From Pseudomonadota bacterium (GTDB lineage: Bacteria > Bdellovibrionota_B > Oligoflexia > Oligoflexales > CAIYRB01): DNA of 54,606 bases. Under the pieces are notes generated by a model. It had not been told where the DNA came from, ran no database searches, and saw only the letters and a list, made by a program, of their open reading frames with translations. Below, in pieces: positions 15,107-52,988 of this stretch (positions are counted from its first letter, which is position 1; each line of letters opens with the position of its first letter). The stretch spans positions 1 through 54,606 of the forward strand of contig JAPLFX010000201.1 of assembly GCA_026390445.1 (NCBI GenBank). The letters are read 5' to 3'. A program made the position numbers and the translations under genes.

Positions 15107-16297
15107 ATGACCAAGCCCAGCCGCCCTTGTGTACTTTTTGCGCTCATGGCGCATCTAACCATAACCACTAATGTCTTTGCCGCATCCCAGGTCGTCGTCG
15201 TTGAAGACGGCGGGGTACAACGCGATAACGAAGCGGCCGAGGCCGAGCAAGGTGGACCGACGGCCGCTGGCCCCGTGGGTGAGCGGCCTGATGACAAAGA
15301 CGAGCGCACCGGGCTGCTTTGGATCTTTCCCGAGGCTTATGCCAACTTCGAGATGCGGCATGTGACCCTGCGCCAGATGAGCCGCGACCGCGGCCTCGTG
15401 CATGTCACCGGTGGACCGATCTTGCTCGATAACAAACACGAGCTGGTTGACAGCCCGCACTGGGAGCTGCGGCCGACGATCGGTAGCACCTTCTTGAACG
15501 GCAAGCTCGATTCCGCCTTCACCTTCGTCTTTGTCAATGACGTCGGTTCGAGTGACCTGGTCAAACACGACGTCGTCAACTATACCCAGTGGAACGTCAT
15601 CGACGGTAAATTCAATGCCAATAGCCCTTACCTGTTTGGCCCTTCGGCGTTCACCGATTTGATGACCGGTGACAACGGTGGCGCCAGCTTCGCGTATTCG
15701 GATATCGGCTTCTTTGGCGAGGCCAACTACCAATTCCCCATTCCCACCGGCTCCTTCACCGTCCGTGGTTACCTAAACCCAACCATGGAAGTCTACAGCC
15801 CAGAGCAGAGCAAGAAGAACCGCTCCACCCTCGTACGCGGCAACGACCCAGGGCAACGGCGTGGAGTCTCGAGCAGTCCACTCGTGGATACCGATTTGCC
15901 CGAAGATGCGCCCATGGCGGCTCGGCAAAAGCACCCGCTGTACTTGGCCTTCTACGGCATCGGCGGCACCTATAAACCAACTAGCCTTGAGCACCTCTCG
16001 TTAGCCTTAAGCTTTGATATCATCGAGACCTGGAAGCCGGTCTACAAAGAGACCGTCGTCCCAGGCCAGTCCGAAACCTCGGTCAAGCTGGAAAGCCACG
16101 AGCGCGATGCCGTCAGCTTTGCTCGCTTCACCGCCACCTATGAAGTCAGTAAGCGCGTCACCGTCGTGAATCAGCTGCGGCATTATACCGCCGGTATTTG
16201 GGAGCGCGGGATCAGTGCCGACAACCCAGAGCGCACCACTCAGGTCGGAGCGGTGTCTTGGGAAAATCGCCTTTGCATGATCGTCACTCTGTTTTAA
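15107..16297 (+). CDS. Exported hypothetical protein, probable outer-membrane barrel
   Basis: The 396-residue product begins with a signal peptide (MTKPSRPCVLFALMAH, cleavage near VFAA) and a charged linker. It continues with about ten segments of alternating hydrophobic and polar residues rich in Tyr, Phe and Trp (for example YANFEMRHVTLRQM and DSAFTFVFVNDV). It ends in ENRLCMIVTLF, with the terminal Phe common to outer-membrane barrels. No known family was recognised. GAGGA lies about ten bases before the ATG. Its TAA overlaps the TAA of the convergent addA gene in a shared TTAA (16294-16297). Confidence 0.6.
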   Translation: MTKPSRPCVLFALMAHLTITTNVFAASQVVVVEDGGVQRDNEAAEAEQGGPTAAGPVGERPDDKDERTGLLWIFPEAYANFEMRHVTLRQMSRDRGLVHVTGGPILLDNKHELVDSPHWELRPTIGSTFLNGKLDSAFTFVFVNDVGSSDLVKHDVVNYTQWNVIDGKFNANSPYLFGPSAFTDLMTGDNGGASFAYSDIGFFGEANYQFPIPTGSFTVRGYLNPTMEVYSPEQSKKNRSTLVRGNDPGQRRGVSSSPLVDTDLPEDAPMAARQKHPLYLAFYGIGGTYKPTSLEHLSLALSFDIIETWKPVYKETVVPGQSETSVKLESHERDAVSFARFTATYEVSKRVTVVNQLRHYTAGIWERGISADNPERTTQVGAVSWENRLCMIVTLF

Positions 16298-19200
16298 CGA
16301 GACGTGACGGTGTCGCCGGTGCTGATGAGACGCACCAGGCGCCTGAGCGAGGTAAAGTATACAGCGGCGGTCACGGTCGTGCCCGGATATAGGGCGCGCA
16401 CCGCCCGCGTATAGTCCGCCAGCTGATCCTGGTAGCCGCGTTGCCGACTGAAGATGGTCAGGGCCGCATCGGGGATCTGGGTTGCTGGTAGGGCGAAGCG
16501 AGTCGTCTTGTAGTCGACGATCAACAAATTGCCGGCGTTGTCCTCAAGCAGCAAGTCGAGGGTGCCGACGATCATTTGATCGCCGTCTAGGTGGACCAAG
16601 GGCAATTCTGTTTCGATGCCGCGCGCTGCTTCGCGCAAGGCATTCAACGCCGGGTCATCACGCAGCTCGGCCCATTCCGCAAACACCTGCGCCTGCAACT
16701 CCGGCGGTGGGTGGAGTGGCGCCAGCTGCGCCTGCCACGCCGCATCGGGCGAAAAGGCCTTGCCCGACATAAACGCCTCCAAGCCAAGGTGGAGGAAGGT
16801 CCCTACGGCTGCTGCCAGGCTCGTACCGAGGCTTTGATCAAGGGCAAGGACCGGGCGCCCGGTCCCTAACGTCCCACCGTGGCGTGAGGGGCTGGCGATG
16901 ACGATCTCGCGGGGTAGGCCGCTGGTCGGGTGCCAAGTCAGCGCGGGGATGGGTGTTGCAGCAGCGCTGACGGCTTCGCCGCTGAGACCCGAGTCAGGGA
17001 CCGACGAGACCCCGCTTAAGCTGACACCACCGAGCGTGTAGTGGACGAGTCCGGGCATGGCCGACACCGCCTCGGCGAGCTGATGATACATCTGCGTCGT
17101 CGCCAGTCCTTGCCTGCCGCCAACCTGGTGGCCGCTCACTACGAGGTACTGGCGCGAGCGGGTGAGCGCAACGTAGAGGAGGCGTTGGCACTCGCTGGTC
17201 ACAGCCGCCGCGCTGGCTGCCAATAGACCTTCAAAGTCGCGGTCGCTTGGCGGATGCGCCGCCTTTTTGCCGATGTAGTAAAGTCCGGCGCGGCCGCTGT
17301 CCGAGCTTCCTTGCGTCCAATAGAGATCCTGTTTACCCCAAGGCCTAGCCGTATCAACGAGAAACACACAGGGAAACTCCAGTCCCTTGGCCTTGTGGAT
17401 CGTCATCAAGGTCACGGCATCGGCAGGGGCGGCGGCGTTGCCCAACTCGTCGTCGCCGGCGAGCAAGCCGAGGCGTTCAATCAGCGGCGCCAGGCTGGTG
17501 AGGCCGTCTCCTTCCAAGCGAATGACCAGTTCGACCAAGCGCAGCAGGTTGCGGCGGACCAGCGTGGCCTCAGCCTCGGCACCTTCAGGTGCCACGCGGG
17601 CAAACGCGGCAAAGGCGTCGAATCGGTCCAAGGCTTCAAGTAGCAAGGCATGCGGCAACAGCTGGTCCGTGGCTGTCAGCAAGGACTGCAGGGTCTTGCC
17701 GAGCTGTGGCTGCACCTGCTCGATGAGTTCGAGGATCTTGCCGGTGCGCTCCGCCTCGCGCTGCGTGGCTGCGAGCACTTGCAGTAGCTCGGTGTCAGCC
17801 ACGCCGCCAAGCGGGCTGCGCAGCACCGTCGCCAGGGCGACCGTGTCACCGGGCAGGGCGAGAAAACGCAGCAATGCACAGGCATCGGTGATTTCCGGAC
17901 GGGAGAAGAAGCCGCGCTCCTCCTCGCGTTGGCAGGCGATCCCTTCGCGGCGCAGCGCTGCGGCAAACAGCGCTGCTTTCGTCGTGGAGCGATAGAGGAT
18001 GCAGCAGTCCTGGGCGCGCAACGGCCGAAACCCCCGTGCCTCCTTGTCATAAACAGGAAAGTTTTGATCACCGCGGACCATCGCGGCGATCAGCTGCGCG
18101 ACCTCGGTGGCTTCGCGTTCGGCCCCGGCCCCAGTCGCAGGATCTTCGTCGTCGTCTTGACCTTCAGCGCTTGGCGCTTCGTCAAAGTCCTCCCGGCTTG
18201 GCGTGTCGGCGTCAACGTTCACGGCTGCAATCAGCGGTGCAATCAAGACGCGCCCGACATCCGGCACAAAGGCGGCGCCACCATGGCTTGCAGTCTGATG
18301 CCGCGGGAATTGCGCCCCCAGACCTTGGTGAAACACCTGGTTGACATAATCCAAGACGACCTGCGCCGTGCGGTAGCTATCGTTCAGTGGCGCCAATGCC
18401 AAGCGCTCAGCCAAACTGCTTTGGGCTTCGCCAAGCACCGCCGCATCAGCCTCGCGAAAGCCGTAGATCGATTGCTTCGCGTCGCCGACGATAAACACCG
18501 TCGGACTTAGGCCGCTGGCCTCGTCGCTGCCTTCGCCCGCCAGCATCTGGGTGATCAGCTCGTGAAAGACGCCCCATTGTAGGCGGCTGGTATCCTGGAA
18601 CTCATCGAGCATGACGTGGTGGACGGTGCGCGACAGCAGAAAGCGTACCCCGGCGCTGCCGGCGCCGTGCAGAAGGCGGTAGCTGCCCTTGACCAGGTCG
18701 CGAAACTCGACCTCACCGGCCTGGAACTTCAGCTGGTCGCGCAGTAAGCGGTAGATGCCATAAAGCTGATAGTGGCTCTGCCCCTCCTGGCTCAGCTGGT
18801 GTAGGCGTTCGGCGCTGACGTGGGCTTGGACGCAGGCCTCGATATGGCTGATCTCCTGCGTCAGCTGCTCGCGCTTTTTGCCCCGAATATAGGTCCCACT
18901 GATGGTGAATTCCTGTTTGGTCAACAGGCCGGTAGCCAGCAGCGAGGCAAAGTCGCGTGCCGCCAGCGCCGCCGTCACCGCCGCGGCGCGACCACGGTCG
19001 GCTAACACCGCTGCAACCGCTGCAAAGGCCGTGGCGATCTGGCCGACGACTTCGCCTTCGTCTTGCAGGTGATGGCGATGCGGTAGAAAGGCGACGCCGT
19101 CGTCAGCCTGCATCTCGCGGTACCACAGGTAGGTATCTTGGCGATCGAGTCCGATCAGGCGCTGTTCGAGGTCTGACAGACCATCTCGAACCAAACTCCG

Positions 19201-19794
19201 CAGCATAGGCGCAAAGCGTTCGTCGCCTTGTTTGGCGGCGCGTGACAGGATTTCGCAGGTGCCGCGCCAGGCCCGGCGGTGGAGACCACGAGCATCCATG
19301 GGACTGATCAGTTGAAACGGCGAGGGTAGGGGTGCTCCCGCCGGATCCGCTAATGCCGCGCTGGATTCGAGTGGAAATTTGCTGACCCATTCAAGAAATA
19401 AGCTGTCGATCGTCGAGATCTTCAGCAGCTGCGACGATGCCAACACCTTACGCGCTACCTCGGTGGCAGCTACCGGCGGCTTGTGCGTGCCGCTGCCCTG
19501 GGCCGCGTAGAACCGTCCGAGCTGTTTCGTAAAGGACTCTTGTTTACGCGAGTCAGCGGCCAGGCAGGCAGCCTCTTCGAGGATCCTCGCGCGCATCTCG
19601 CCGGCGGCTTTTTTGGTAAAGGTCACCGTCAGGATCGAACTCGGGGCGGCGCCGGCGCCGACCAAGTAGAGAAAGCGTTGGCTCAGCTGGTAGGTTTTAC
19701 CGCTGCCGGCGGAGGCGGCCACGAGGTAGCTGGCGTAGGGGTTTTGCGGTTGTGCGGTACCGAAATCGTGCTTGGCGTCGGTCGGTTGAGTCAT
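16294..19794 (-). CDS. addA: AddA/RecB-like helicase-nuclease subunit
   Basis: UvrD-type superfamily 1 helicase with a C-terminal nuclease, part of the double-strand-break resection complex that feeds RecA. From the ATG ending at 19794 it has 1166 residues. Motif I is AASAGSGKTY (26-35), motif Ia is TVTFTKKAAGEM, motif II is DEFQDTS (397-403), motif III is GDAKQSIYGFR (437-447), motif V is TIHKAKGLEFPCVF and motif VI is LLYVALTRSRQYL. The nuclease has GTLDLLLED and IVDYKT (Asp1094, Lys1096). The open frame extends upstream, but this ATG overlaps the addB stop as ATGA and gives the normal N-terminus. With addB as direct partner and no recC/recD, AddA is the better name. Confidence 0.88.
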   Translation of the reverse strand: MTQPTDAKHDFGTAQPQNPYASYLVAASAGSGKTYQLSQRFLYLVGAGAAPSSILTVTFTKKAAGEMRARILEEAACLAADSRKQESFTKQLGRFYAAQGSGTHKPPVAATEVARKVLASSQLLKISTIDSLFLEWVSKFPLESSAALADPAGAPLPSPFQLISPMDARGLHRRAWRGTCEILSRAAKQGDERFAPMLRSLVRDGLSDLEQRLIGLDRQDTYLWYREMQADDGVAFLPHRHHLQDEGEVVGQIATAFAAVAAVLADRGRAAAVTAALAARDFASLLATGLLTKQEFTISGTYIRGKKREQLTQEISHIEACVQAHVSAERLHQLSQEGQSHYQLYGIYRLLRDQLKFQAGEVEFRDLVKGSYRLLHGAGSAGVRFLLSRTVHHVMLDEFQDTSRLQWGVFHELITQMLAGEGSDEASGLSPTVFIVGDAKQSIYGFREADAAVLGEAQSSLAERLALAPLNDSYRTAQVVLDYVNQVFHQGLGAQFPRHQTASHGGAAFVPDVGRVLIAPLIAAVNVDADTPSREDFDEAPSAEGQDDDEDPATGAGAEREATEVAQLIAAMVRGDQNFPVYDKEARGFRPLRAQDCCILYRSTTKAALFAAALRREGIACQREEERGFFSRPEITDACALLRFLALPGDTVALATVLRSPLGGVADTELLQVLAATQREAERTGKILELIEQVQPQLGKTLQSLLTATDQLLPHALLLEALDRFDAFAAFARVAPEGAEAEATLVRRNLLRLVELVIRLEGDGLTSLAPLIERLGLLAGDDELGNAAAPADAVTLMTIHKAKGLEFPCVFLVDTARPWGKQDLYWTQGSSDSGRAGLYYIGKKAAHPPSDRDFEGLLAASAAAVTSECQRLLYVALTRSRQYLVVSGHQVGGRQGLATTQMYHQLAEAVSAMPGLVHYTLGGVSLSGVSSVPDSGLSGEAVSAAATPIPALTWHPTSGLPREIVIASPSRHGGTLGTGRPVLALDQSLGTSLAAAVGTFLHLGLEAFMSGKAFSPDAAWQAQLAPLHPPPELQAQVFAEWAELRDDPALNALREAARGIETELPLVHLDGDQMIVGTLDLLLEDNAGNLLIVDYKTTRFALPATQIPDAALTIFSRQRGYQDQLADYTRAVRALYPGTTVTAAVYFTSLRRLVRLISTGDTVTSR

Positions 19795-22700
19795 GAGTTG
19801 GCTCCTCGCAAGGACCGGGCCATACGCGGAGCAAACTCCGGGTCGTCCTTGCGGCACACCCCAGCGTAGTGACACATCTGGCAGTCGCGCGGTTCCGGGG
19901 TAAAGCTGCCCAGCGGCGCGAGCAGGGCAGTATGGCGTGAGGTCCAGTGGTTCATCAGGCTTTGCGTCGCGTCTTCCAGGGTCGTTTTGTCGCGGCCACC
20001 AACCAGCTTGAGCCGGCGGGCCTGCTCTTGGGCTTCGCTTCCGGCGATGCTGTTTAGCCACTGCCCGCCAAGGATACTCCAATAACCCACCACTGAATGC
20101 GCCAAGCGGCGCTCCGGGTGCATCTGCTCCAGGGCCTTGGCGTAGAGTAGCAGCTGCGGTACGAGCCCTTCTTTCACCGCACTGCGGCGCGGCACAAAGC
20201 GGCGTTTGTAGTCGGTGATGAGCTGCAGGCCCGCCAACTGATCGACGCTGTCGATGGTCCCAGTGAGCACGACCGAGCGGTCACCCACCTGCAGGCGGAC
20301 CGCAGTACCATCTGCATGGACGAGCCGCTGCTCGCGCTCGCCAGAGCTGCCCCCTGTGACCTCGGCGGCCCCGTAGATGCCAGCGATGTGCGTCGCAAAA
20401 TCCGGCCACGCGCGCTGTCGCACCTGCAGCTCCAAGGGGGAATCGGCGGCGGCGGCTGGCAGTAGGCGGTCGGTCAGGGTGTTTAGGCGCGCGAGGGCTT
20501 GACCCGCCCAGGTGTCCTTCGGCCCGGTGAAGGTGAGCGGCGCATCGAGGTGCTGCTCTTTGTGGCGACCTGTGAAGAAGACCTCGAGCACGACGTGCAG
20601 CCAATTTCCTTCGTGGCGGGCATCGTCTTCTTGCGGCAGTTCAACCGGGTGCACACCTAGGCGGTGCAGCAAAAAGCGGTAGGGACAAGCCAGCAGATAG
20701 GCCAGGGAGCTGGCCGACTGGTGGCTGAGAAAGCGCTCTGTCTGCTCGTTTGATACGACACCCTGGTTGCCCAGGCGGTGTCCTGCTGGTGCGGTCTGGC
20801 CGCGATCATGGCGCTGGGGCGCGAGCAGCAAAGTCCATTCGGTATCGGCGTTGACCGCATATTCGCGCGTCTGACCAAGGGCGATGGCCGCCTCGATAAA
20901 GCGTGAGCGTACGACTGCGTCGCCGCCGCGGTTGGCTGGGTAGAGCAACACCATCGCCGGGAGTCTGGCGCACAGGAGATGGAAGGTGGTGTCCTCGATG
21001 GCCTCGAGCAGCTGCCATCCAGGCAAACCGATTTTTGTTTTAAGATAATTGTCGACCAAGTAGTCGCGCGGCAGGGCCCGCGGAAAGTCACCTTCACTAG
21101 CGCCGAGGACGAAGGCCACGTCAAACGGCACGTAGCGGGCCTCGGCAACGCTGAGGATCTGGATACCGCGCAGCGGATGGCCGACGCTGCGCACCGGTGC
21201 AAGTAGCAGTTTGTCGCGCAAAATCTGCAGGAACTCGCGACGCGTCAGCGCTGTGCGCAGGCGCAGAGACAAGGCACCTAGGGCCTGGCAGAACTCACCC
21301 AAGGTTTCGGCGGCCGATGTCATCAGGCCGCGACCGACGCCGCCTGGATCGTCCAGCTTGGTCTGGCTCTGCTCCGCATCGTCGACGCTAAGGAAGTCCT
21401 GCACCAAAACACTGAGCACGCCGACCCAATCGGCGAGCTCGCGGCCGTGGGGGAGGGGGCGTTCGGCCCAGCAACCCAAAGCCGTGACGACAGCACTCAG
21501 ATAGGCGCGCACCTCGGCGCTGAGGTGCTTGGCCCGGATTAACTCCTGCAGACTCTCAGATCCGTCGCCCTTGCATAACTCACGACTGAGACGGCTGCTC
21601 CATTCCACGGCTCCGGCCGTCCCAGCAATCTCGGCATTGGCTTGTTCTGGCATGAGGCGCCACCAGCGCAGCGTCAATGGGTGGGTGAGCAGTGCCAAGG
21701 TTCGCGCCACGGTCTGGTCGCCGAGCAGCAGCTGGATCACGCTGCTCAGCCAGGTGCCGGGTAAGGTCTCGGCAAGCGGGGTGGCGAGGGCGACGTTGGC
21801 GGCAAGCTGGGCTCCCTTGAGCATCGCCCGCAGTGGTTTACCATAAGTGACATCATTGGTGACGAGGATGGCGATGCCCGAGGGTGCCACTCCGCCGGCC
21901 AAGGCTTGTTGGCTCAAGGTCAACGCATGCGCCACCTCGGCCAGCACGGTGTCGGCGCGGCGCACCTGCAGGGGCTGCGGCGTCGCCCGCACCACCGTTG
22001 GCTGGCGCAGCGTACCGGGAGCATCGATCATGGTCAGCAGCCACTCAAGCGGGCTCTTGCCGGTGTGCAGTTCGGGTACGGTGCTCAGCCATAAGCACGT
22101 ATCTTCGCGCCGTGCCAGCGCATGCAGCAGAGCCTGGTGGCAGCCCTGCGCACTGCTCAGGCCGACGACATAGAGTTGGCGCCACGGCACCGGCTGCTGG
22201 CTGGCAAGGTAACTGGCTAGGCTGTTGCTCAGGCGGGCGAGTCTGCGTTCGCTGGTTTCCGCGCCATGCTCGTCTTGGACGGACTGGGCAAAGCGAGTGG
22301 CCAGATGGCGCAGTTCGTCGAGGCGCTGGCTCAGCGTGTCCAGGCTCCCTTCGCTCAAGTAAATATTGTGCGCGACGACCTCGGCCAAGCGATCGAAGGC
22401 CTCGAGGTTCATGCCCCAGTCGGCAAATTCGCTGAGTAGCTGCTTCACCTCATGCTCGTGTCCATAGCGCAGGTGCTGGTAGGCGCCTTCCTTGAGCAAG
22501 CTGGCGAGCAGCAGCTCTTGTTCCAAATCGCCCATGGACCGCAGCGGCTGTGGACCAGAGGCGAGGTCGACAGCCTGGCGCTCGATAAAGTCATCCAGGG
22601 TGTAGCAGCGTGGCGGGATAAACGCCGGGCGCTCTTGGGCTAGCATAGCCACCAACCAGGTCGCCAGGCGCTTCGTGGGAAGGACGATGTGGCAACCTCT

Positions 22701-22808
22701 AAGCTGCTCTGGCGACAGGCCTTTTAGCTCTGCATACAGCTCCGAGATCAAGCAGCTGGGGCTGGGCCAGAGCGACAGGCCGTGGGGAGGCGGATGCTGG
22801 TGGTTCAT
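19791..22808 (-). CDS. addB: AddB-like nuclease subunit with iron-sulfur cysteines
   Basis: Partner of AddA, 1005 residues. The N-terminal part resembles an inactive helicase fold and has no intact Walker A. The C-terminal nuclease carries LTGTIDSVDQ (Asp853), then LITDYKRRF (Asp866, Lys868), the GxxD...DxK pattern of RecB-type nucleases. Four cysteines (Cys708 in CPYRFLL, then Cys976, Cys979, Cys985 in CQMCHYAGVC) match the 4Fe-4S staple of AddB proteins. The stop is coupled to the addA start (ATGA), which implies equal expression. Overall sequence is diverged, so naming rests on the nuclease, the cysteines and the pairing. Confidence 0.85.
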   Translation of the reverse strand: MNHQHPPPHGLSLWPSPSCLISELYAELKGLSPEQLRGCHIVLPTKRLATWLVAMLAQERPAFIPPRCYTLDDFIERQAVDLASGPQPLRSMGDLEQELLLASLLKEGAYQHLRYGHEHEVKQLLSEFADWGMNLEAFDRLAEVVAHNIYLSEGSLDTLSQRLDELRHLATRFAQSVQDEHGAETSERRLARLSNSLASYLASQQPVPWRQLYVVGLSSAQGCHQALLHALARREDTCLWLSTVPELHTGKSPLEWLLTMIDAPGTLRQPTVVRATPQPLQVRRADTVLAEVAHALTLSQQALAGGVAPSGIAILVTNDVTYGKPLRAMLKGAQLAANVALATPLAETLPGTWLSSVIQLLLGDQTVARTLALLTHPLTLRWWRLMPEQANAEIAGTAGAVEWSSRLSRELCKGDGSESLQELIRAKHLSAEVRAYLSAVVTALGCWAERPLPHGRELADWVGVLSVLVQDFLSVDDAEQSQTKLDDPGGVGRGLMTSAAETLGEFCQALGALSLRLRTALTRREFLQILRDKLLLAPVRSVGHPLRGIQILSVAEARYVPFDVAFVLGASEGDFPRALPRDYLVDNYLKTKIGLPGWQLLEAIEDTTFHLLCARLPAMVLLYPANRGGDAVVRSRFIEAAIALGQTREYAVNADTEWTLLLAPQRHDRGQTAPAGHRLGNQGVVSNEQTERFLSHQSASSLAYLLACPYRFLLHRLGVHPVELPQEDDARHEGNWLHVVLEVFFTGRHKEQHLDAPLTFTGPKDTWAGQALARLNTLTDRLLPAAAADSPLELQVRQRAWPDFATHIAGIYGAAEVTGGSSGEREQRLVHADGTAVRLQVGDRSVVLTGTIDSVDQLAGLQLITDYKRRFVPRRSAVKEGLVPQLLLYAKALEQMHPERRLAHSVVGYWSILGGQWLNSIAGSEAQEQARRLKLVGGRDKTTLEDATQSLMNHWTSRHTALLAPLGSFTPEPRDCQMCHYAGVCRKDDPEFAPRMARSLRGANS

Positions 22809-27555: not shown

Positions 27556-30500
27556 ATGCTGAGCCTGCGCGACCAAGTCTTTTCCGCCAAGGAGGAGTAC
27601 ACAGTGTTATCTGTGCTCCCGTGCGGTCAGGCTATGGTCAAGGCCTTTGCGCGTTCGTCCGGTGGCGACAAAGTTCGTATCACCGTCCTTGCGACTGCGG
27701 CCATGAACGACCGCCAGGTCGAACAGATGCGCGCTTTGATCGCGTCGCGCTCAGCGCTACCGTTAGCGCGTTGGCCGCAGCTGCGCGAAAGCAACGTACA
27801 GGGTGGTCATCTCTACCTGATTGAGACTTTACCCGAAGGTGCCCTGCTAGCCGAGTGCAGCAAGGATGGCAGGACGCTCGATGCGCGCACGCTGATGACC
27901 TTTATGCTGGCGCTCACCAAGGTCTTGGAAGAGGCGCACCAGCAGGGTCTGAGCCACAAACAAATTTGGCCAGGGGCGCTTTACCTGATCAACCAAGATT
28001 GGCGGCGGCCGATGCTCCTTGATCTCGGCGAGTCGGAGCTGCTGCCACCGGTGGACTCTGACCAGATGGATCCATTGCGCTACGCGCCGCCAGAACGGTT
28101 TGGCCATGTTAGCGGCGGCAACGGTCCGGCTGCTGATTTGTATGCGCTCGGCATGGTCTTGTACGAGCTAGCGACCAAGTCCTTGCCAGTGCGCGGGACG
28201 ACCCTTGCGGACATCGCCCGCAGTGTTTACACCTCCGTTCCAGATCCCTTGCATGCCCTGGTGCCCGGCATGCCGACCATGCTCAGCGACATCGTGGTGC
28301 GGCTCATGCGTAAATCCCCCGGTGATCGCTACCAATCTGCCCGCGGCCTTGCGGCCGATGTCGACCAATGCCTGAGTCTGCTTGATAAGCCTCACCTTAG
28401 CCAAAGCTTTGCCCTTGGTCGGCACGATCATAAACGGGAATTGAATTATAAAATTCCCTTGGTGGGACGCCACCGCGAGTTCACCTCCCTGAGCCGCGGC
28501 CTAGAAAGCGCCGCGCGTGGTCATGGGACCTTGCAACTGATTGCCGCGCCATCCGGCATGGGCAAGACGCGGCTGGCCCGCGAGATCCTCAGCGCTGCGG
28601 CGCAGGCTGATTTCACCACCTTCACGGTCAAGTTCTCGTCCTTCGAGGTGAATGTACCGCTGTGCGCCATCAATCGGTTGATTCGCGACCACGCCGCCAT
28701 GGTCCGCCAGTTGCCAACCGAGATCCGTCTGGCGTGGCAAAACCGGCTGCTTGTCGGCTTAGGCAGTCGTGGCCAATTGCTCAGCAAGCGGCTCGACTTT
28801 TGTCAGGATATCTTCCCGGTATTCCCGCCGCATGCAGTTCTCGCCCGCGAAGAAGAAGAGCGAATCTTTTTCCAGACCTTCGCGCAGTATATCGGCCTGC
28901 TGGATACGCGGGGGCGCGGCACCTACATCTTTATCGACGATTGGCAGTGGTGTGACGCCCTGTCGGTGACCTTGCTCAAGCAAGTCGCCATCCTTGCCCA
29001 GACCCAGCCGCTTGGGCTGGTTCATCTGATTGGTGCCTACCGCAGCGAGGAGGTGAATCCGCAACATCCACTGAGCCTCCAAGTCCTGCCGCAAATCCGC
29101 AGTGCCGAGCAACTAACGCTGAATGCACTGGACGCGCATGGCTGCAGCGACCTCGTCGAAGCACTGCTCGACGAGCGCAGCCCTTTTGTCGATGAGCTGA
29201 AGGGCTTTGTCCATGCGGTCAGCGGTGGCGTGCCGTTTTTCGTCTATCAAGTGCTCGAAACCATGCTGCATCACGGCATCATCGCTCTGGGCGCCAATGG
29301 TGCGTGGAGCTTTGACACCCAGCGGGCGCAGGCGCAGATTTCCGCTAGTGATATGCGTCAATTGATCAATCAACGCTTGAAGCAACTCAGCGACATTGAG
29401 CTTACCTTGATCAAAGTCGCTTCGATCGCCGGGGCGTCGATCGCGAACGACGCCTTGTACCAAATCTATAATGGTCACCTGCGCTATAAAAATCCTGACT
29501 TTGCATTGGACCTAAGCACCGACGAAATCATTAAAAACGGCCTCGACCAACTGCGGCATAAACACCTGATTACGAAGCGTCAGGATCAACTGGTGTTTGC
29601 CCACGACCGCATAGTCAGGGGGGCCTTCGACCTCTTGAGTGCTGACGAGCGCAAGGAACTGCACTACGACTACGGAGTTTACCTCAGCGATAAGCTGTTA
29701 AAGGCACAGGGACTGGCCAATTCCCGCGATATCTTCGAGGCGGCTTATCATGTCATGGCTGGCCATCCAGAGCGCAGCTCACAGCTTGCGATCATCGTGC
29801 TGACGCGGGCCGGGGAGAGGGCCGTTCGCCTCTTTGCCTACCGTAAAGCCAAGGAGTACTTGGAACTCGCCGTTAAATTATCACCCGCAGTGCCACCCAA
29901 AGACACCGAGGTGGTAGAGGGCCAATCTGGCTGGCACCATCTGATGGAGCTATACGGTGATGCCCTGTCGGTAGCCGATGATCCGAGGATGGCGATCAAT
30001 ACCTATACGATGCTGCTTGAATGGACGCGCGAATCCTATCACCGCGCGACCATTTACGGCAAGATCGCTCGCAACCATCTCTTTCTCTTTCGCTACGATT
30101 TGTCGGTTGAGGCCGGTAATAAGGGTCTTGGTGAACTGCGCGCCAAATATGTCACCTCGGACCTAAAGTCACTGCTGATGATCGCGCTTGGTGCGCCACG
30201 CTTTGTCGCAACGCTGCTTTGGTTTTGGCTGTTTGGTAAGCAGACGCGAGAGGTATCAGGCAAGGCCGAGCAGGCCGCGCTTGATCTGCTGATGAATATC
30301 CTCGTCCCCGGATACTTTATGAAGCCGCTTGGGGCCATCGCCAATTTTATGGCTCCGACCTGTAGGCTGGTCTTTTACAAGGACTGTCGGTTTCGGGCGT
30401 TGATGTTTGGCTACTGGGGAATCGCCACCGCCTCTCTCGGGCTAGAAAAGATCAGTCGTCGCTGCTTTGACCGGACTCAGGACTATCTCGACCGAGAGCC

Positions 30501-33459
30501 AAATCCCGTCGATCAAGCATTTATCTATATGACGCGTGGTTATCTGCTGGAATTACCGCTCGGCAACGTCGCCTTGGCGCGCGACTATGTGCACCGCTCG
30601 CTGCGCATCACGCAGGACATTGGTGAATCGTTCTGGCAGGTGCTAGCGCACCAGGCGGTGATCGATACGGACTTCTTCGGCTTTGGGGATGGTGCCGGTG
30701 TCGCCGCGGCCGAGCATATGGTCGATGTCCACCGAACAGCGTCGTTCGAACCGACGGTGATGGCGAGTACGCTCAGGATCTGGCAGGGCCTCGGGCGTAT
30801 GTCCGAGTTCCACCACTGGCGGCAACTCGTCGATGCGGCGCACCAAAGGTTTCAGGCAAGTGGCTTTGAAACCATCGACGCGATCTACGCCGCGACTCAC
30901 CCGGGCGAAATCCTGCTGCGTGGGGGTAACGCCGAGCAGGCTTTGCCGCGCTTGTCCAGCGGCTTAAGGATGAGACTAAAGCACGCCCATCGCGTCGTTT
31001 ACTGTTGTTACTGTCCGATCCTATTGGCCCAGGCTCTGACCCGGTGCGGTCGTCACATCCGCGCCTTGGTGCCGCTTTTCGTCGCTTGGTTTGACGTCGC
31101 TTTGGGGGTGCGCCTCTTTCTGCCGCAGACCCTCTTCGCTTCTGGTGAGGTGGTGCAGGCGTTTGGCTTTAGGCGCTCGGCGGAGCGTCTCATGCGCCGA
31201 TCTATCCGCTACGCGATGGGTCGCGGTTGGCATGGGCCTGCCAACGATCTGCGGGTGCAGTTTGCGCGCTTTTTGCTGCCTTTTGATCCTGAGGCCGCAT
31301 TGTTTAACCTGTCCATTGCAAAGTTGCATTACCAGTCATTGGGTCAAAGCTTTCATGTCGCCGAGTGTGCCGCCCTCATGGTCAGTGCCGAAGGCGCGTT
31401 TGATGCCCTCTTCCCCGCCGCACAAGGGCGGCTCTTGGCCGCCCTTACGCCTTCTAGTGAACAGGTCCCAGCGTTAAAACGGCGACTTGAGACCAGTGCC
31501 GTCATCGACATGTTTTTGACCCTCAGTGAAGCCTCGACTTTGGAACATGTGGCCACGGTCGCATTGCAGGTCGCAGCGGACTGCACTGGTGCTGATCACG
31601 GCGTCCTCTTTCTGCCTGAAGCCGGAGGCTGGCGCGCCGTTGCATCGCGAGGTTTGCCGCCCAACGCGTCTTTGGCAACGGAGCGCCTTGGCGAGACGAT
31701 CGATACCGAATTCCTAGACAGCATTCGCCCCAACCTGGATGGACCTTGCATCAGACCGCTCCAGGGGCCGGCCCTCGATGCCGGGGCGGTGATGGTCGTG
31801 CCGATGCTTTACGAGCGCACCTGTTACGGCCTAGCCTATCTCGGCCACAGGCAGATCCGTGAGCTATTCGAGCAGCAATCGCTCGAGGTGTTGTCTTCAT
31901 TGACGACGCAAATCGCTATCACCCTGTGCAATTTCCAGCTTTTGGCGAAGGTCCAGGGCCTCAATGCCGAGTTGGAGCAAAGTCTGAGCGATGTCGAAGC
32001 CGAGGTGTCGAGGCGAACCAGTGACATCCGCTCGATGTTTCAGGCGATCGAACTAGGAGTCTTGGTGGTACGTGCCGACTTCTCTATCCACGACGAGTTT
32101 TCAGCTCATCTTGCGGTCATCCTCGAAACGGAGGCCATCGCTGGACGAAGTATCATCGACGTGCTGTTTGCCAACACCCTGGCGACGGACGAGCAACGCT
32201 CGCTGACAAGCTCAGCTCTTGCCTCTTGTCTTGGCGAGGAGGCTTGGATCTTTGACCTAAATAAGTCCTGGTTACCCCTGGAGATCATCCGCATGTCGCC
32301 AGTGGGTGGCCAGAAGATTCTCGAACTACAATGGAATCCAGTGATCGCCCCGAACGGCAGCATCGACCGGATCCTCCTCGTTCTGCGCGATGTCACCCAC
32401 GTGCGCGAACTGACTGCACTGGCCGATCAGGGGCGGCGCAATTTAACCATGATTGGTGAGCTTCTCGGCAGTGACGCCGACTTATGCGGTCGCTACCTTG
32501 ATGCTGCTGCCACCGATCTGAAAGCCATCGTCACTTTGTTCCAGGGGACAGGCTCGGACTCGTCGTCGACGACGACCCTTAAATTGATGTTTATCAAACT
32601 GCACACGATCAAAGGACTCGCCCGTACCCTTTGCCTATCCTTTCTTTCCGCCGCAGCCCATCAGGCCGAGAACGGGTTTGCGGCGCAGCGGCAAGTTGCG
32701 GCAAGTTGGGAGTCAAGCGGGCTGCGCCGGGACCTTGCCGAAGTCGAAGCGGTCCTTGCCAGCTATCAGCACCTGAACACGCACGTGCTCAAACGCGACG
32801 TAAACGCGGCGGACCAACCAGCAGCGACGCCGCTGCGGCCGTTTGCCGGCGAATCTGCGCAGCATATCTTCAGCCAATGGTTTGCGCGTATCGATGATCT
32901 AGCCCGAGAGCTGGGCAAGCCAGCGCCGCAGGTGAAGATTGAGGTGGACGAGGGCCTGTGTCTGCCGCCGACCTCCGTGAATGTCCTGACTAAAGCCATG
33001 GTACACATCATTCGTAACGCCATGGACCATGGAATCGAGTCGCCATTGGAGCGTCAGCGCAGCGGCAAGAATCCGGCCGGAAGCCTCTACTTACAGGCGC
33101 GTCAGGCCGGCGCCAGTCTAGTGCTGCGCTTTGCCGATGACGGGTCGGGTCTGGATCTGGTTCGCTTGCGCCAGCAAGCAGTGTTAACCGGATTATTGCC
33201 GGCCGAAGCTCAACTTTCCCCGCAACGCCTCGCAGAACTAATCTTTGCGCCGGGACTGTCGACGGCCCCTGGCTTGTCGCAGATCTCGGGTCGCGGTGTT
33301 GGTATGGATGCAGTAAGGACGATCTTAGAGCACCATGGCGGCGAGGTGCAGGTGATCATAACGAGCACCAACGCGGATCGCGCACTATTCGTCTTCGAAA
33401 TTAAGATCCCACTGCCTGCAGCCCAGCTATCTCCAGTGGTGGGCCGCAAGACGGCTTAA
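27556..33459 (+). CDS. Giant hybrid: pseudokinase, AAA ATPase, helical repeats, GAF, PAS-like, Hpt and CheA-type ATPase
   Basis: A single 1967-residue signalling protein. Residues 1-280 have a Ser/Thr-kinase fold (YAPPE at 176-180, DLYALGMVLYELAT at 194-207). The catalytic Asp loop is replaced by LSHKQIWPGALYL, DFG reads LDLGE, and no VAIK lysine is seen, so this is probably a pseudokinase. Residues 300-640 are an ATPase with Walker A APSGMGKTRL (331-340) and Walker B YIFIDDWQW (457-465). TPR-like helices fill about 690-1300, a GAF domain about 1310-1475, and a PAS-like region about 1500-1610. His1683 lies in HTIKGLART, a CheA-style Hpt site. The C-terminal ATPase has Asn1821 in IIRNAMDHGIE, FADDGSG and GRGVGMDAV. 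No CheW domain is present. CheY-like and CheX-like genes lie convergent to it. Confidence 0.88.
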   Translation: MLSLRDQVFSAKEEYTVLSVLPCGQAMVKAFARSSGGDKVRITVLATAAMNDRQVEQMRALIASRSALPLARWPQLRESNVQGGHLYLIETLPEGALLAECSKDGRTLDARTLMTFMLALTKVLEEAHQQGLSHKQIWPGALYLINQDWRRPMLLDLGESELLPPVDSDQMDPLRYAPPERFGHVSGGNGPAADLYALGMVLYELATKSLPVRGTTLADIARSVYTSVPDPLHALVPGMPTMLSDIVVRLMRKSPGDRYQSARGLAADVDQCLSLLDKPHLSQSFALGRHDHKRELNYKIPLVGRHREFTSLSRGLESAARGHGTLQLIAAPSGMGKTRLAREILSAAAQADFTTFTVKFSSFEVNVPLCAINRLIRDHAAMVRQLPTEIRLAWQNRLLVGLGSRGQLLSKRLDFCQDIFPVFPPHAVLAREEEERIFFQTFAQYIGLLDTRGRGTYIFIDDWQWCDALSVTLLKQVAILAQTQPLGLVHLIGAYRSEEVNPQHPLSLQVLPQIRSAEQLTLNALDAHGCSDLVEALLDERSPFVDELKGFVHAVSGGVPFFVYQVLETMLHHGIIALGANGAWSFDTQRAQAQISASDMRQLINQRLKQLSDIELTLIKVASIAGASIANDALYQIYNGHLRYKNPDFALDLSTDEIIKNGLDQLRHKHLITKRQDQLVFAHDRIVRGAFDLLSADERKELHYDYGVYLSDKLLKAQGLANSRDIFEAAYHVMAGHPERSSQLAIIVLTRAGERAVRLFAYRKAKEYLELAVKLSPAVPPKDTEVVEGQSGWHHLMELYGDALSVADDPRMAINTYTMLLEWTRESYHRATIYGKIARNHLFLFRYDLSVEAGNKGLGELRAKYVTSDLKSLLMIALGAPRFVATLLWFWLFGKQTREVSGKAEQAALDLLMNILVPGYFMKPLGAIANFMAPTCRLVFYKDCRFRALMFGYWGIATASLGLEKISRRCFDRTQDYLDREPNPVDQAFIYMTRGYLLELPLGNVALARDYVHRSLRITQDIGESFWQVLAHQAVIDTDFFGFGDGAGVAAAEHMVDVHRTASFEPTVMASTLRIWQGLGRMSEFHHWRQLVDAAHQRFQASGFETIDAIYAATHPGEILLRGGNAEQALPRLSSGLRMRLKHAHRVVYCCYCPILLAQALTRCGRHIRALVPLFVAWFDVALGVRLFLPQTLFASGEVVQAFGFRRSAERLMRRSIRYAMGRGWHGPANDLRVQFARFLLPFDPEAALFNLSIAKLHYQSLGQSFHVAECAALMVSAEGAFDALFPAAQGRLLAALTPSSEQVPALKRRLETSAVIDMFLTLSEASTLEHVATVALQVAADCTGADHGVLFLPEAGGWRAVASRGLPPNASLATERLGETIDTEFLDSIRPNLDGPCIRPLQGPALDAGAVMVVPMLYERTCYGLAYLGHRQIRELFEQQSLEVLSSLTTQIAITLCNFQLLAKVQGLNAELEQSLSDVEAEVSRRTSDIRSMFQAIELGVLVVRADFSIHDEFSAHLAVILETEAIAGRSIIDVLFANTLATDEQRSLTSSALASCLGEEAWIFDLNKSWLPLEIIRMSPVGGQKILELQWNPVIAPNGSIDRILLVLRDVTHVRELTALADQGRRNLTMIGELLGSDADLCGRYLDAAATDLKAIVTLFQGTGSDSSSTTTLKLMFIKLHTIKGLARTLCLSFLSAAAHQAENGFAAQRQVAASWESSGLRRDLAEVEAVLASYQHLNTHVLKRDVNAADQPAATPLRPFAGESAQHIFSQWFARIDDLARELGKPAPQVKIEVDEGLCLPPTSVNVLTKAMVHIIRNAMDHGIESPLERQRSGKNPAGSLYLQARQAGASLVLRFADDGSGLDLVRLRQQAVLTGLLPAEAQLSPQRLAELIFAPGLSTAPGLSQISGRGVGMDAVRTILEHHGGEVQVIITSTNADRALFVFEIKIPLPAAQLSPVVGRKTA

Positions 33460-33481: not shown

Positions 33482-33859
33482 TTAAGTTGAGGCGATCCCG
33501 AGCACTTTCACCGCCGCTGCAAGCACCAGGTCCGGACTGCAGGGCTTGATGATCCAGGCCTTGACCCCGCACTCCTTACCTTGCGCCTTTAGGCCTGGCG
33601 AGGACTCCGTTGTCAGCATAAACGAGGGGGTGGTCCGATGGGTGCTCAATGCACGAATGCGCTGCAGCATCGTCAGGCCATCCATTTCCGGCATGTTGTA
33701 GTCGGATACGATCAAGTCGATGTCGCCATGCGTCTCGGCTTGGACCAGTCCACTCGCTCCGTCGCTGCCGTAAATCACTTGATGACCGGCCTTTTGTAAG
33801 TAGTCACCGAGTTCGGTTCGAGTGATTTCGGTATCATCCACTACGAGGATTTTCGCCAT
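33482..33859 (-). CDS. CheY-like single-domain response regulator
   Basis: A 125-residue receiver with all active-site residues: Asp8-Asp9 in ILVVDD, phospho-acceptor Asp53 in IVSDYNMPEMDG, Thr83-Thr84 in MLTTE and Lys105 in IIKP. There is no output domain, so it should act by protein binding. The ATG ending at 33859 begins the usual MAKILVVDD; an in-frame extension to 33886 is unlikely. It lies 26 bp downstream of the CheX-like gene on the same strand and ends 22 bp from the stop of the CheA-like hybrid. It is the natural phosphoryl acceptor for the hybrid's Hpt domain (inference from context). Confidence 0.88.
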   Translation of the reverse strand: MAKILVVDDTEITRTELGDYLQKAGHQVIYGSDGASGLVQAETHGDIDLIVSDYNMPEMDGLTMLQRIRALSTHRTTPSFMLTTESSPGLKAQGKECGVKAWIIKPCSPDLVLAAAVKVLGIAST

Positions 33860-33885
33860 ATTCTTAACCTTTGTTTGCCTAGGCA

Positions 33886-34500
33886 TTACAGGAATTCAAT
33901 AGAACCGCCATCCGCAACGGCGAAGGCCTCGTTGAAATCGAGCCCATGGACCACTGCCGGGTCAGCAAAGTCGATGGTCGAAGTACAGACAAAGGTGGCG
34001 CCAGTGGCCACCACCGACCACGCGTCGGTAGCGCTGCGGTCCGTCACGCGGTCGTTGAAGAACAACTCATCGAGACCGCTGGTGATCACCGGCAGGCTGA
34101 TGCCGCATTCGATACCGCGGTGCTGCAGCTCACCCTTGATCCCACCTGCGGTCAGGTTGGCATACTCGCGAAAGAAATCTTGAACGCGCTCCTGCTGCCT
34201 GGCGGTGCTGCTGGTCACGACCGATAGTCGCTGCAGCAAGGTCATAACATCGGAACGGTTGAAATGGGCCTTGAAGGTGACCCGCAGGTCGCGGCTTGCG
34301 AGTAGCACGATGGCCTGCATGTACCCGTGGACCAGAGCGTTGCCTAGTGGCAGCGGCCCATCGGCCACGGCCTCCGGCGTCACTTGCAGCATCGTCTGAA
34401 AGCGCCTGCGGGCATAGAAGCGGATGAGCTTCTGCAGAGCCAAGCAGCCGGAATCTACCGTGTGACCTGTTTGGTTAGGAGGCATCAGTTTGTCACTCAT
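33886..34500 (-). CDS. CheX/CheC-like phosphatase-family protein
   Basis: The 204-residue protein has one clear CheC/CheX/FliY signature, E-x-x-N-x-x-x-G, at Glu112, Asn115 and Gly119 in REYANLTAGGIKGEL. A later segment, ISLPVITSGLDE, resembles the CheX strand that follows the motif. These proteins dephosphorylate CheY-P; here the adjacent receiver is the likely substrate. The N-terminal 100 residues and the C-terminal part (ATGATFVCTS) fit a duplicated alpha/beta layout. Sequence is diverged, so activity is inferred. It is transcribed divergently from the SpoIIE-type phosphatase, with 230 bp between. Confidence 0.65.
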   Translation of the reverse strand: MSDKLMPPNQTGHTVDSGCLALQKLIRFYARRRFQTMLQVTPEAVADGPLPLGNALVHGYMQAIVLLASRDLRVTFKAHFNRSDVMTLLQRLSVVTSSTARQQERVQDFFREYANLTAGGIKGELQHRGIECGISLPVITSGLDELFFNDRVTDRSATDAWSVVATGATFVCTSTIDFADPAVVHGLDFNEAFAVADGGSIEFL

Positions 34501-34730
34501 CCTATGATTGTCTTGGCTTTACCACGACTAAGCAACCACCAAGCGAAGATCCTGGACCTAGAATCTGGTCGTCCAGATAAGATTCGAGCAATTCTTTCGC
34601 TGTGTCATGGGCTTAACTCCCACGGTGACTACTACCTGCTGAAGAGGTCGCTAAAACGTCTCATTCCATCCTATCATAGAGGCAGCAAGACACGTGTTGT
34701 CACCATCTTCAGACCTGTAGGACAGTGCAC

Positions 34731-36023
34731 ATGAACGATATTTCGGTGATCAAGATGGAGGAGCTTTTTGGCCACAATCTCCGTGCCACCTACGAGATCA
34801 TCACCGACATGGAGAAGGCACGCGCGGCGTTTGAAATGCTGATTCACGATATGGCTGATGCCTGTTTGCTGCTCGATGCGGATGGCCGGTGTATCTGGGG
34901 TAACCTGGCCGCCGCCGATCTCTTTGACGTCGATCAAGAGATAATCGGCCGCCTGAGCCTCATTGGGATGCTGGCGCCAGCGGCCGCCCGGACCTTTATC
35001 GCGCACCTGGAGGACGCTCAAGCATCAGGAAAACACGCCGCCCCCTTCGACCTGGCCATCCCCGTTCATGGCAAGATGCGTGAGTTGTCCTGGTACCTGC
35101 GTCCATTTCACGGCGTGATCCACCATCCCCGCGGCCTGTGGGTTGCGGTTGGACACGATGTCACGACCCTGCTCGCCGAGCGCGCGGCAAAGATGCGGCT
35201 TGAAGCCGAGATGGACACCGCACGGATCATCCAAGATGCCCTCTTTCCGACCCAAAGTGATGGCGTTGGCTCACTCAAGCATTGCAGCTTTTACGGTGCG
35301 GCCGACCGCTGTAGTGGCGATTGGTGGGGGCGCTTCTCGTTGTCGCCCGACCTCGAGCTCGTCTGTATCGGCGATGTGACGGGTCATGGGGTGGGCTCGG
35401 CACTGGTTACGGCAGTCACCCACGGCTACTTCACCACCCTGGTGCAGATGGCTGGGCGCTTGAGCGCAGCTGAGCTCCGCTCTCCGGGATTTATCCTAAG
35501 TCAACTAAACTCGATCCTTATTGCGACGAATCAATCCATGCAGATGACCATGTTCCTGGCGCTGATCGACCTTAAAACCAAGACCTTGCGGTATGCCAAT
35601 GCTGGTCATAATTTCCCCTACCTGATCCCAGGAAATCCCAAGGATGAACGCATCGCCAAGCAGACCTACCGGACCAATCCCTGGCCATTTATCCCCTTGG
35701 TCCCGGGTGGCAGCACCTTAGGCTATATGGCGGACTCACGATATGAAGACCATCAGTTGCCTCTGCTCCACGCCGATCGCTTGTTGTTTTACACCGATGG
35801 GTTGATCGAAAATGAGGCGGCCTCTGGCAAACCCTGGGGTATCCGGCAACTGCAACGCCGCATAACGTCGGGCGTGCACCTGGCCCTTCAAGATATGCTG
35901 GACGGCATCGTCGAAGGCGCGAAGCAACACTGTGGCGCAGTGCCGTGGGCTGACGATGTCACCCTCGTCGCTCTTGAACTGAACTTTGCAAACGGCTCAA
36001 ACGGGGTCAGTCACTCCCGTTAA
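34731..36023 (+). CDS. PAS-SpoIIE/RsbU-type Ser/Thr protein phosphatase
   Basis: The 430-residue cytoplasmic protein has an N-terminal helical segment, a PAS domain (about 40-145, with CLLLDADGRCIWGN and LWVAVGHDVT), a linker helix (AERAAKMRLEAEMDTARIIQ) and a SpoIIE-type PP2C catalytic domain. Metal-binding Asp residues appear in ADRCSGDWWGR, VCIGDVTGHGVGSALV, FYTDGLIEN and WADDVTLVAL. Such enzymes usually dephosphorylate an anti-sigma-factor antagonist or similar STAS protein. No STAS or anti-sigma gene is in the window. The ATG at 34731 follows TAGGA and is preferred over a GTG at 34725. It belongs to the same signalling block as the CheA-like hybrid. Confidence 0.9.
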   Translation: MNDISVIKMEELFGHNLRATYEIITDMEKARAAFEMLIHDMADACLLLDADGRCIWGNLAAADLFDVDQEIIGRLSLIGMLAPAAARTFIAHLEDAQASGKHAAPFDLAIPVHGKMRELSWYLRPFHGVIHHPRGLWVAVGHDVTTLLAERAAKMRLEAEMDTARIIQDALFPTQSDGVGSLKHCSFYGAADRCSGDWWGRFSLSPDLELVCIGDVTGHGVGSALVTAVTHGYFTTLVQMAGRLSAAELRSPGFILSQLNSILIATNQSMQMTMFLALIDLKTKTLRYANAGHNFPYLIPGNPKDERIAKQTYRTNPWPFIPLVPGGSTLGYMADSRYEDHQLPLLHADRLLFYTDGLIENEAASGKPWGIRQLQRRITSGVHLALQDMLDGIVEGAKQHCGAVPWADDVTLVALELNFANGSNGVSHSR

Positions 36024-36065: not shown

Positions 36066-36186
36066 GGCTTTGCTGCAAAAATCCTGCCCTCCAGGCTTCC
36101 CGCTCTCCCCGTTGCGCGGAATAAAGCCGCTGCTCAAAAACTGTGAGAGCGGGAAGGCTGGAGGGCAGGATTTTTGCAAAAGCGCC
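36066..36186 (-). mobile_element. MITE copy 1 (121 bp, palindromic, IS903-like ends)
   Basis: Long inverted repeat starting GGCTTTGCTGCAAAAATCC and ending with the partly degraded complement (right terminal 19 bases match the left at 15 positions). The arms hold the block ATCCTGCCCTCCAGGCTTCC and its complement. The centre contains, on the minus strand, CAGTTTTTGAGCAGCGGCTT, the core shared with the other copies, so the element is inverted relative to copies 2 and 4. Flanking 9-mers (ccctaggtc and cctgagatt) match at only five positions, so target duplication is eroded. It lies 43 bp after the SpoIIE phosphatase stop. The G+C-rich stem flanked by A5 and T5 could terminate transcription in both directions. 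Confidence 0.75.
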
Positions 36187-44202: not shown

Positions 44203-44323
44203 GGCTTTGTTGCATAAATCCTGCTCTCCTGCCTTCCCGCCCTAACAGTTTTTGGGCAGCGGCTTTATTCCCTGCAACTGGGAGGGCGGGAAGGCAGGAG
44301 AGCAGGATTTATGCAACAAAGCC
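44203..44323 (+). mobile_element. MITE copy 2 (121 bp, perfect arms)
   Basis: The best-preserved copy. The left end GGCTTTGTTGCATAAATC and the block CTGCTCTCCTGCCTTCCC are repeated as an exact complement at the right, giving arms of about 41 bp around a short core with GTTTTTGGGCAGCGGCTTTA. Flanking 9-mers aaattaaat (44194-44202) and aaaataaat (44324-44332) match at eight of nine positions; because the area is AT-rich this alone is weak, but copies 3 and 4 show the same length. From memory, IS903 ends are GGCTTTGTTGAATAAATC, one base different, with 9-bp duplications. No reading frame for a transposase fits inside. Confidence 0.88.
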
Positions 44324-46936: not shown

Positions 46937-47055
46937 GGCATTGTTGCAAAAATCCTGCCCTCCAGCTTCCCGCCCTCCCAGTTTTTGGAATAAAGCCGCC
47001 TGTCCAAAAACAGGGAGGGCGGGAAGCTGGAGGGCAGGATTTTTGCAACAATGCC
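46937..47055 (-). mobile_element. MITE copy 3 (119 bp) with 9-bp target duplication
   Basis: Ends GGCATTGTTGCAAAAATCC and its exact complement. The arms include CTGCCCTCCAGCTTCCCGCC and complement. The minus-strand centre reads GGCGGCTTTATTCC, the family core, so the copy is inverted relative to copies 2 and 4. Flanking 9-mers cacctttgt (46928-46936) and cacctttat (47056-47064) match at eight of nine positions in mixed-composition sequence, good evidence of transposition. The copy lies between two divergent genes and forms a bidirectional terminator-like hairpin with A5 before and T5 after the stem. Confidence 0.88.
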
Positions 47056-47245
47056 CACCTTTATCAGAGTGGCCGCAAGTCCCTCTGACGCCTCGACTTG
47101 GTGGCATGCGTCGCACCTATCTGGTAGTCTCGGCCGACTCTAACAAGTCCTTCGGCGGCCTCCGCACGGCCCCAAGGCCCTCAAACCCGCTCAATGATCT
47201 AGGTGGATGTCACCGTTAGCGGCGTACACAGCGAAAGGTTTGGCA

Positions 47246-52753: not shown

Positions 52754-52866
52754 CGTCAGGATCGTCGCCGGGGACACCACTTTGGGGTGACAATAAAACG
52801 TCGACTCGCTTATAATTTTGTGTCCGCGATACTTGACGCGCCTCGTCGTGTAAGTTGGTAGGAGGC

Positions 52867-52979
52867 GGCTTTGTTGCATAAATCCTGCCCTCCCGCCTTC
52901 CCGGCCTCCCAGTTTTTGGGCAGCGGCTTTATGCCGCTTAGCCTGGAGAGTGGGACGGCGGGATTTATGCAACAAAGCC
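52867..52979 (+). mobile_element. MITE copy 4 (113 bp) with 9-bp target duplication
   Basis: Outer 18 bases GGCTTTGTTGCATAAATC and complement are identical to copy 2; internal arms have diverged and the right arm has lost about eight bases. The core AGTTTTTGGGCAGCGGCTTT is in the same orientation as copy 2. Flanking 9-mers gtaggaggc (52858-52866) and gtaggaggt (52980-52988) match at eight of nine positions. It lies between the methyltransferase stop and the response-regulator start. Confidence 0.88.
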
Positions 52980-52988
52980 GTAGGAGGT
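52980..52988 (+). promoter_or_regulatory. Ribosome-binding site made by, or kept as, a MITE target duplicate
   Basis: The right-hand duplicate gtaggaggt contains AGGAGG eight bases before the TTG start of the response regulator at 52996. The left-hand duplicate (52858-52866) contains the same core beyond the element. The insertion therefore hit the Shine-Dalgarno sequence, leaving one copy on each side and separating the gene from its original upstream DNA and promoter. Confidence 0.65.

Follow-up and report, generated by a model that had tools for sequence, protein, structure and literature searches.

The window (the whole 54,606-nucleotide stretch of DNA that we analysed) encodes a hybrid protein in which a Pkinase fold is followed by an AAA_16 ATPase, a TPR-like region, a GAF domain, a PAS-like region, an Hpt domain carrying His1683 and a CheA-type P4 ATPase. 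Beyond it lie genes for a CheY-like response regulator, a CheX-like phosphatase and a PAS-SpoIIE phosphatase (Table 1). A Pfam domain search bears out the order of kinase, ATPase, GAF, Hpt and CheA-like end that a sequence-only reading of this DNA had proposed. The AAA_16 domain has a Walker A motif (AAPSGMGKTRL, aa 330) and a Walker B region (IDDWQWCD, aa 460), and HATPase_c is matched at aa 1814-1950. CheW, HisKA and H-kinase_dim have no Pfam match in the hybrid, and the protein stops 12 residues past P4, in keeping with the proposed CheA-like end that lacks CheW and has an Hpt domain where a HisKA might have stood. Pfam finds no TPR in aa 491-1325, which we take to be TPR-like helical repeats; aa 1458-1640 would be PAS-like, judging from position, a weak NCBIfam match and a low-confidence model. 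The C-terminal AlphaFold model was built from a three-row alignment (pLDDT 64.5) and has low confidence except over Hpt and P4.

Table 1. Features of the hybrid gene and its neighbours (positions in the window).
Feature	Position	Strand	Evidence or remark
Whole hybrid protein, 1967 aa	27556..33459	+	One uninterrupted ORF, ATG start
Pseudokinase fold, aa 15-275	27598..28380	+	Pfam Pkinase 37.2 bits (aa 77-260, passes cut-off); AF2; Foldseek
Thr43 replacing beta-3 (VAIK) Lys; local VRIT	27682..27684	+	Alignment of 89 chassis kinases
Gln136 replacing HRD catalytic Asp; HKQIWPGA	27961..27963	+	Alignment of 89 chassis kinases
DLG, Asp156-Leu-Gly158; DFG metal-binding Asp kept	28021..28029	+	Alignment of 89 chassis kinases
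AAA_16 ATPase, aa 301-486	28456..29013	+	Pfam 67.7 bits
Helical region, probably TPR-like, aa 491-1325	29026..31530	+	30-40% conserved among relatives
GAF, aa 1329-1457	31540..31926	+	Pfam 29.2 bits
Signalling helix and putative PAS-like region, aa 1458-1640	31927..32475	+	30-50% conserved among relatives
Hpt domain, aa 1643-1731	32482..32748	+	Pfam 26.3 bits; helical bundle in C-terminal model
His1683, predicted phosphorylation site, first residue of HTIKG	32602..32604	+	Motif position
CheA-type P4 ATPase, aa 1771-1955	32866..33420	+	PDB phmmer CheA P4, 98 bits; Foldseek
Single-domain CheY-like response regulator	33482..33886	-	Pfam Response_reg 70.8 bits; convergent with hybrid, gap 22 bp
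Putative CheX-like phosphatase, ExxN motif (EYAN)	33886..34500	-	Pfam CheX 23.3 bits, under cut-off 27
PAS-SpoIIE (PP2C-type) phosphatase, divergent from CheX-like gene	34725..36023	+	Pfam SpoIIE 121.5 bits

The architecture of the hybrid is shared by two paralogues in its own genome (L025 and L026) and by proteins of two other genera (L016 and L017). L025 (G000:C265, 2-7039) and L026 (G000:C236) are probably tandem paralogues of the hybrid. A partial gene at the edge of C265 (L009) overlaps L026 at 96.6% nucleotide identity; the two are probably strain variants of a gene broken in assembly.

The catalytic residues of the kinase fold were read from an alignment of 89 kinases belonging to proteins with the same kinase-ATPase-TPR-GAF chassis. 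The beta-3 Lys and the HRD Asp are replaced, as had been claimed; the DFG motif, claimed to be lost as well, is DLG and retains Asp156. The own-genome paralogues likewise have Gln at the HRD Asp (HGQLDP) and, with DVG, keep the metal-binding Asp. A pseudokinase is defined here as a kinase fold that lacks one or more of the beta-3 Lys, the HRD Asp and the DFG Asp; two of the three are gone, the triad is not intact and the pseudokinase call holds. The same alignment has Ala141 in place of the catalytic-loop Asn; the glycine loop is gone and the SPEQTGRMNR activation-segment signature, present throughout the wider chassis, is missing, while an APE-like PPE is kept. AlphaFold2 predicts a complete two-lobed kinase fold (mean pLDDT 86.6; N-lobe strands, alphaC and a full C-lobe), whose best Foldseek matches are PknB, PknA and Stk1.

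At the other end of the protein, the CheA P1 and P4 catalytic motifs are all intact. HTIKG starts at His1683 inside the Pfam Hpt domain, as the sequence-only reading had it, and Lys +3, His +19 and Glu +22 from this residue are conserved in all five aligned proteins (the hybrid, L016, L017, L025 and L026); this is presumably the spacing of the CheA P1 site, after E. coli CheA. The nucleotide motifs of P4 (HIIRNAMDHGIE, DDGSG and GRGVGM) are all present, and the suggested P4-like ATPase matches CheA P4 structures both by sequence and by predicted fold (Foldseek TM ~0.8 across the domain). The spacer between Hpt and P4 is about 35 residues long. Many shorter proteins in the host genome and its order also end in PAS-like-Hpt-P4 without CheW (L029, L152-L156); several of them have CheX/CheY neighbours, but their input is a membrane or short sensor and not a pseudokinase-ATPase-GAF chassis. 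In a tree of P4 domains the hybrid falls with the tail-less, CheW-less Hpt-P4 kinases, across a 99/97 branch from the CheW-bearing CheA clade, and 17 CheA-like proteins with long C-terminal tails form one group (92/83).

Using the middle of the hybrid as query against 84,980 species genomes, we found 80 loci, only two of which gave near-full-length matches at low E: Pseudobacteriovorax sp. DT_89 (L017) and Oligoflexus sp. LF-bin-353 (L016). The others share the kinase-ATPase-TPR-GAF chassis and carry other C-terminal outputs. The earlier statement that such hybrids normally end in HisKA proved too narrow: outputs among the 89 chassis proteins, as assigned from motifs and a reading of the C-terminus rather than by curated scan, also include GGDEF, EAL, nucleotide cyclase, SpoIIE, sigma-54 activator and LytTR. 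Proteins with the Hpt-P4 output are not alone in having lost the kinase site, which is also missing in some with other outputs. Among L039-L113, HisKA chassis proteins of Pseudomonas and Paraburkholderia show a separate loss (DFG to GFG, HKD kept), as do gammaproteobacterial GGDEF chassis proteins (Lys to Glu, HKA/HKS, GFG). The genome of the hybrid itself encodes further chassis proteins (L019, L020, L021, L022, L024), three with SpoIIE, one with HisKA and one with an unclassified C-terminus (L024). The nearest chassis relatives outside the Hpt-P4 proteins are L018, L114 and L118, in which the SpoIIE phosphatase is fused straight onto the chassis and not reached through a phosphorelay; the kinase motifs of L114 and L118 are intact.

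Placed by domain order, the front of the hybrid appears to be of a known kind, close to CP1/COG3899-like pseudokinases and HstK-like hybrids. CP1 is a family of bacterial STKs that come joined to a COG3899 ATPase, often with FhlA/GAF or PAS domains, and about 40% of its members are pseudokinases (PMC12599244). As there, a kinase-fold N-terminus is joined directly to a large ATPase and a GAF domain (Pkinase 77-260 directly precedes AAA_16 301-486), with variable catalytic decay; however, the review mentions neither an Hpt-P4 output nor a CheY/CheX/SpoIIE setting (PMC12599244). The HstK or cbSTKIII proteins are cytosolic dual kinases of cyanobacteria that likewise unite an STK, a GAF domain and a histidine kinase on one protein through domain shuffling (PMC2176072). 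The N-terminal STK and GAF domains recur in the hybrid, but HstK-type proteins end in HisKA and HATPase, whereas the hybrid ends in Hpt and CheA P4 and its kinase site is dead.

At least eight chassis-Hpt-P4 proteins exist, all from the host's order, in at least two chassis lineages and some with intact kinases; eight is a lower bound, as candidates in large genomes were scored in part, and other phyla may hold independent fusions. Three members (L149-L151) come from the relatives G030 and G022. The kinase motifs are intact in L150 and L151, whereas the L149 sequence runs off its contig before reaching them. In the chassis tree these three lie far from the clade of the hybrid, so that Hpt-P4 was either acquired by the chassis repeatedly or exchanged; a single origin of this output is not supported by the chassis tree or by an AU test on P4 (p 0.017, with long branches). 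Within the hybrid's clade, L016 branches first, and the degenerate L017, L018, hybrid, L025 and L026 follow (SH-aLRT 96). Because L016 keeps VAIK, HGDLKPSN and DFG, the ancestral kinase was probably active, and since all degenerate members branch after it, a single loss of kinase activity would suffice. At E <= 1e-100 the hybrid is found in none of five same-genus genomes; a different family of the order does have hybrid-type proteins, and a similar distribution holds for the CheX and SpoIIE genes. Horizontal transfer or repeated loss is the likely cause of this patchy spread.

The neighbouring CheY, CheX-like and SpoIIE genes, which the sequence-only reading had passed over, are the best clue to the function of the hybrid. 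The CheX-like protein also matches CheC/CheX structures weakly (E 0.017). We sought its homologues in 43 genomes of the order and read 18 loci: a single-domain CheY is close by at 14, a CheW-less P4 kinase lies within a few kb at 11 and a SpoIIE gene adjoins CheX at four. With the SpoIIE neighbour as query, the same four loci, in other genera of the order, are the best orthologues. In the host genome, CheX and then CheY lie downstream of L029 (HAMP-PAS-Hpt-P4), and in the same-genus genome G002 the gene order is kinase, CheY, CheY, kinase, CheX. From this co-occurrence we conclude that the CheX/CheY cassette goes with CheW-less Hpt-P4 kinases, and the hybrid appears to fill the kinase place in its host genome. 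Cassettes of CheX, CheY and a CheW-less Hpt-P4 kinase, sometimes with SpoIIE, are spread across the order (L178, L179, L181, L182, L184, L187-L191, L193, L195), and they have the look of a family of receptor-free phosphorelays that stand on their own. The chassis-SpoIIE fusions (L018, L114, L118) would point to the same output as the neighbourhood of the hybrid.

The reading that we favour, with moderate confidence, is that the hybrid acts in the cytosol as a sensor kinase for CheY and, with CheX resetting the signal, controls a PP2C-type phosphatase, the pseudokinase being regulatory and non-catalytic. On this view it is a soluble histidine kinase with its own sensor, made by fusing a CP1/HstK-type chassis to a CheA-type output that lacks CheW (PAS-like, Hpt, P4). 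When the ATPase/TPR/GAF part senses a ligand or partner, the helix ahead of the PAS-like region would change; P4 would then place phosphate on His1683, from where it would pass to the CheY encoded next door. The CheX-like protein would strip the phosphate from CheY~P, which in turn would control the neighbouring PAS-SpoIIE phosphatase. The analysis establishes the architecture, the motifs, the predicted fold, selection on the pseudokinase and the conserved cassette; we infer the signal, autophosphorylation, transfer to the adjacent CheY, CheX activity and CheY-to-SpoIIE control, the last of these from gene association. The intact P1 and P4 motifs, the position of P4 in its tree, the recurring cassette, the L029 locus, the chassis-SpoIIE fusions and the dN/dS of the pseudokinase speak for this reading; the CheY/CheX pair, convergent with the hybrid and outside its operon, and the CheX match under the Pfam cut-off speak against it. 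More tentatively, the whole may be an array-free chemotaxis-type phosphorelay (Hpt-P4, CheY, CheX) with a soluble pseudokinase-ATPase-GAF driver in cis and a Ser/Thr phosphatase output, in which the dead fold allosterically gates the histidine kinase.

That the hybrid is the CheA of a chemosensory array is hardly credible. Its Hpt (P1), with the H-K-H-E site, and its P4, with all nucleotide motifs, are both CheA-like, but it has neither P3 (no H-kinase_dim match) nor P5 (CheW) and its sensor is fused in cis. The surveyed CheAs all carry P1, P3, P4 and P5 (PMC10782961), and the same genome has separate long-tailed CheAs (L027, L028, L030, L031). The missing P3 and P5 rule out CheA membership. 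The histidine kinase could also work with another response regulator as its partner, the CheY-CheX-SpoIIE genes serving a different kinase and lying here by chance. In favour of this are the convergent gene arrangement, three loci where CheY-CheX-SpoIIE has no kinase beside it (L178, L179, L182) and the lack of CheY or CheX beside L025, L026, L016 and L017. Against it, a CheW-less Hpt-P4 kinase adjoins 11 of the 18 CheX-like homologues, which makes nearness expected and not accidental, and we regard a different partner as unlikely, though an alternative to be taken seriously.

As to the kinase fold, it might be a functionless, decaying remnant, with just the ATPase, GAF and Hpt-P4 parts counting; the loss of Lys, HRD Asp, loop Asn, glycine loop and SPEQTGRMNR signature fits such decay. 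However, the full fold is predicted with high confidence and persists in the hybrid, in L025 and L026 and even in L017, a distant relative; Asp156 and the APE-like PPE remain, and purifying selection on the fold matches that on the other domains (dN/dS 0.15 between L025 and L026, against 0.10-0.18 elsewhere; a rough estimate, as dS is ~1.1). Decay without selection is supported neither by dN/dS nor by the predicted fold, and a mere remnant seems doubtful to us. Even less probable is that the fold still moves something from ATP, as an atypical kinase or by an AMPylase-like activity, using Asp156 and a displaced lysine. SelO and SidJ are pseudokinases with other chemistries, and the retained D-x-G is shared with them (PMC12599244), but the beta-3 Lys, HRD Asp and metal-binding Asn are all lost, and Gln in place of the HRD Asp is common to the paralogues. 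The best reading is that the fold no longer phosphorylates Ser/Thr and is presumably a selected non-catalytic domain for binding, dimerization or regulation.

Both halves of the hybrid, COG3899-linked pseudokinases and CheA-type Hpt-P4, are already known. In the open-access literature searched we found neither the joining of this chassis to Hpt-P4 with a conserved CheX/CheY/SpoIIE setting nor anything specific on CheW-less CheA-like kinases with CheX/SpoIIE. What is new is the genomic setting, in which the hybrid adjoins a CheY, CheX-like and PAS-SpoIIE cassette conserved elsewhere in the order. The hybrid ties the large and nearly uncharacterised group of COG3899-linked pseudokinases to a definite output that can be assayed, namely phosphorylation of His1683 followed by phosphotransfer to CheY. 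Since the same output is found with intact (L016, L150, L151) and dead kinases (hybrid, L025, L026), the role of the fold without catalysis becomes testable, and the conserved cassette of CheW-less kinase, CheX, CheY and SpoIIE is a candidate signalling system by itself.

Elsewhere in the window, a palindromic, MITE- or REP-like element of ~115 bp that contains no gene, with 40-bp arms that are 93% complementary and flank a 25-bp spacer, has copies at 36067-36183, 44210-44323, 46937-47056 and 52866-52980, and recurs at ~40 places in the genome with 74-94% identity. Two big overlapping ORFs (1262 and 1005 aa) at 16294-22808 on the minus strand may encode a helicase/nuclease pair (AddAB/RecB-like).
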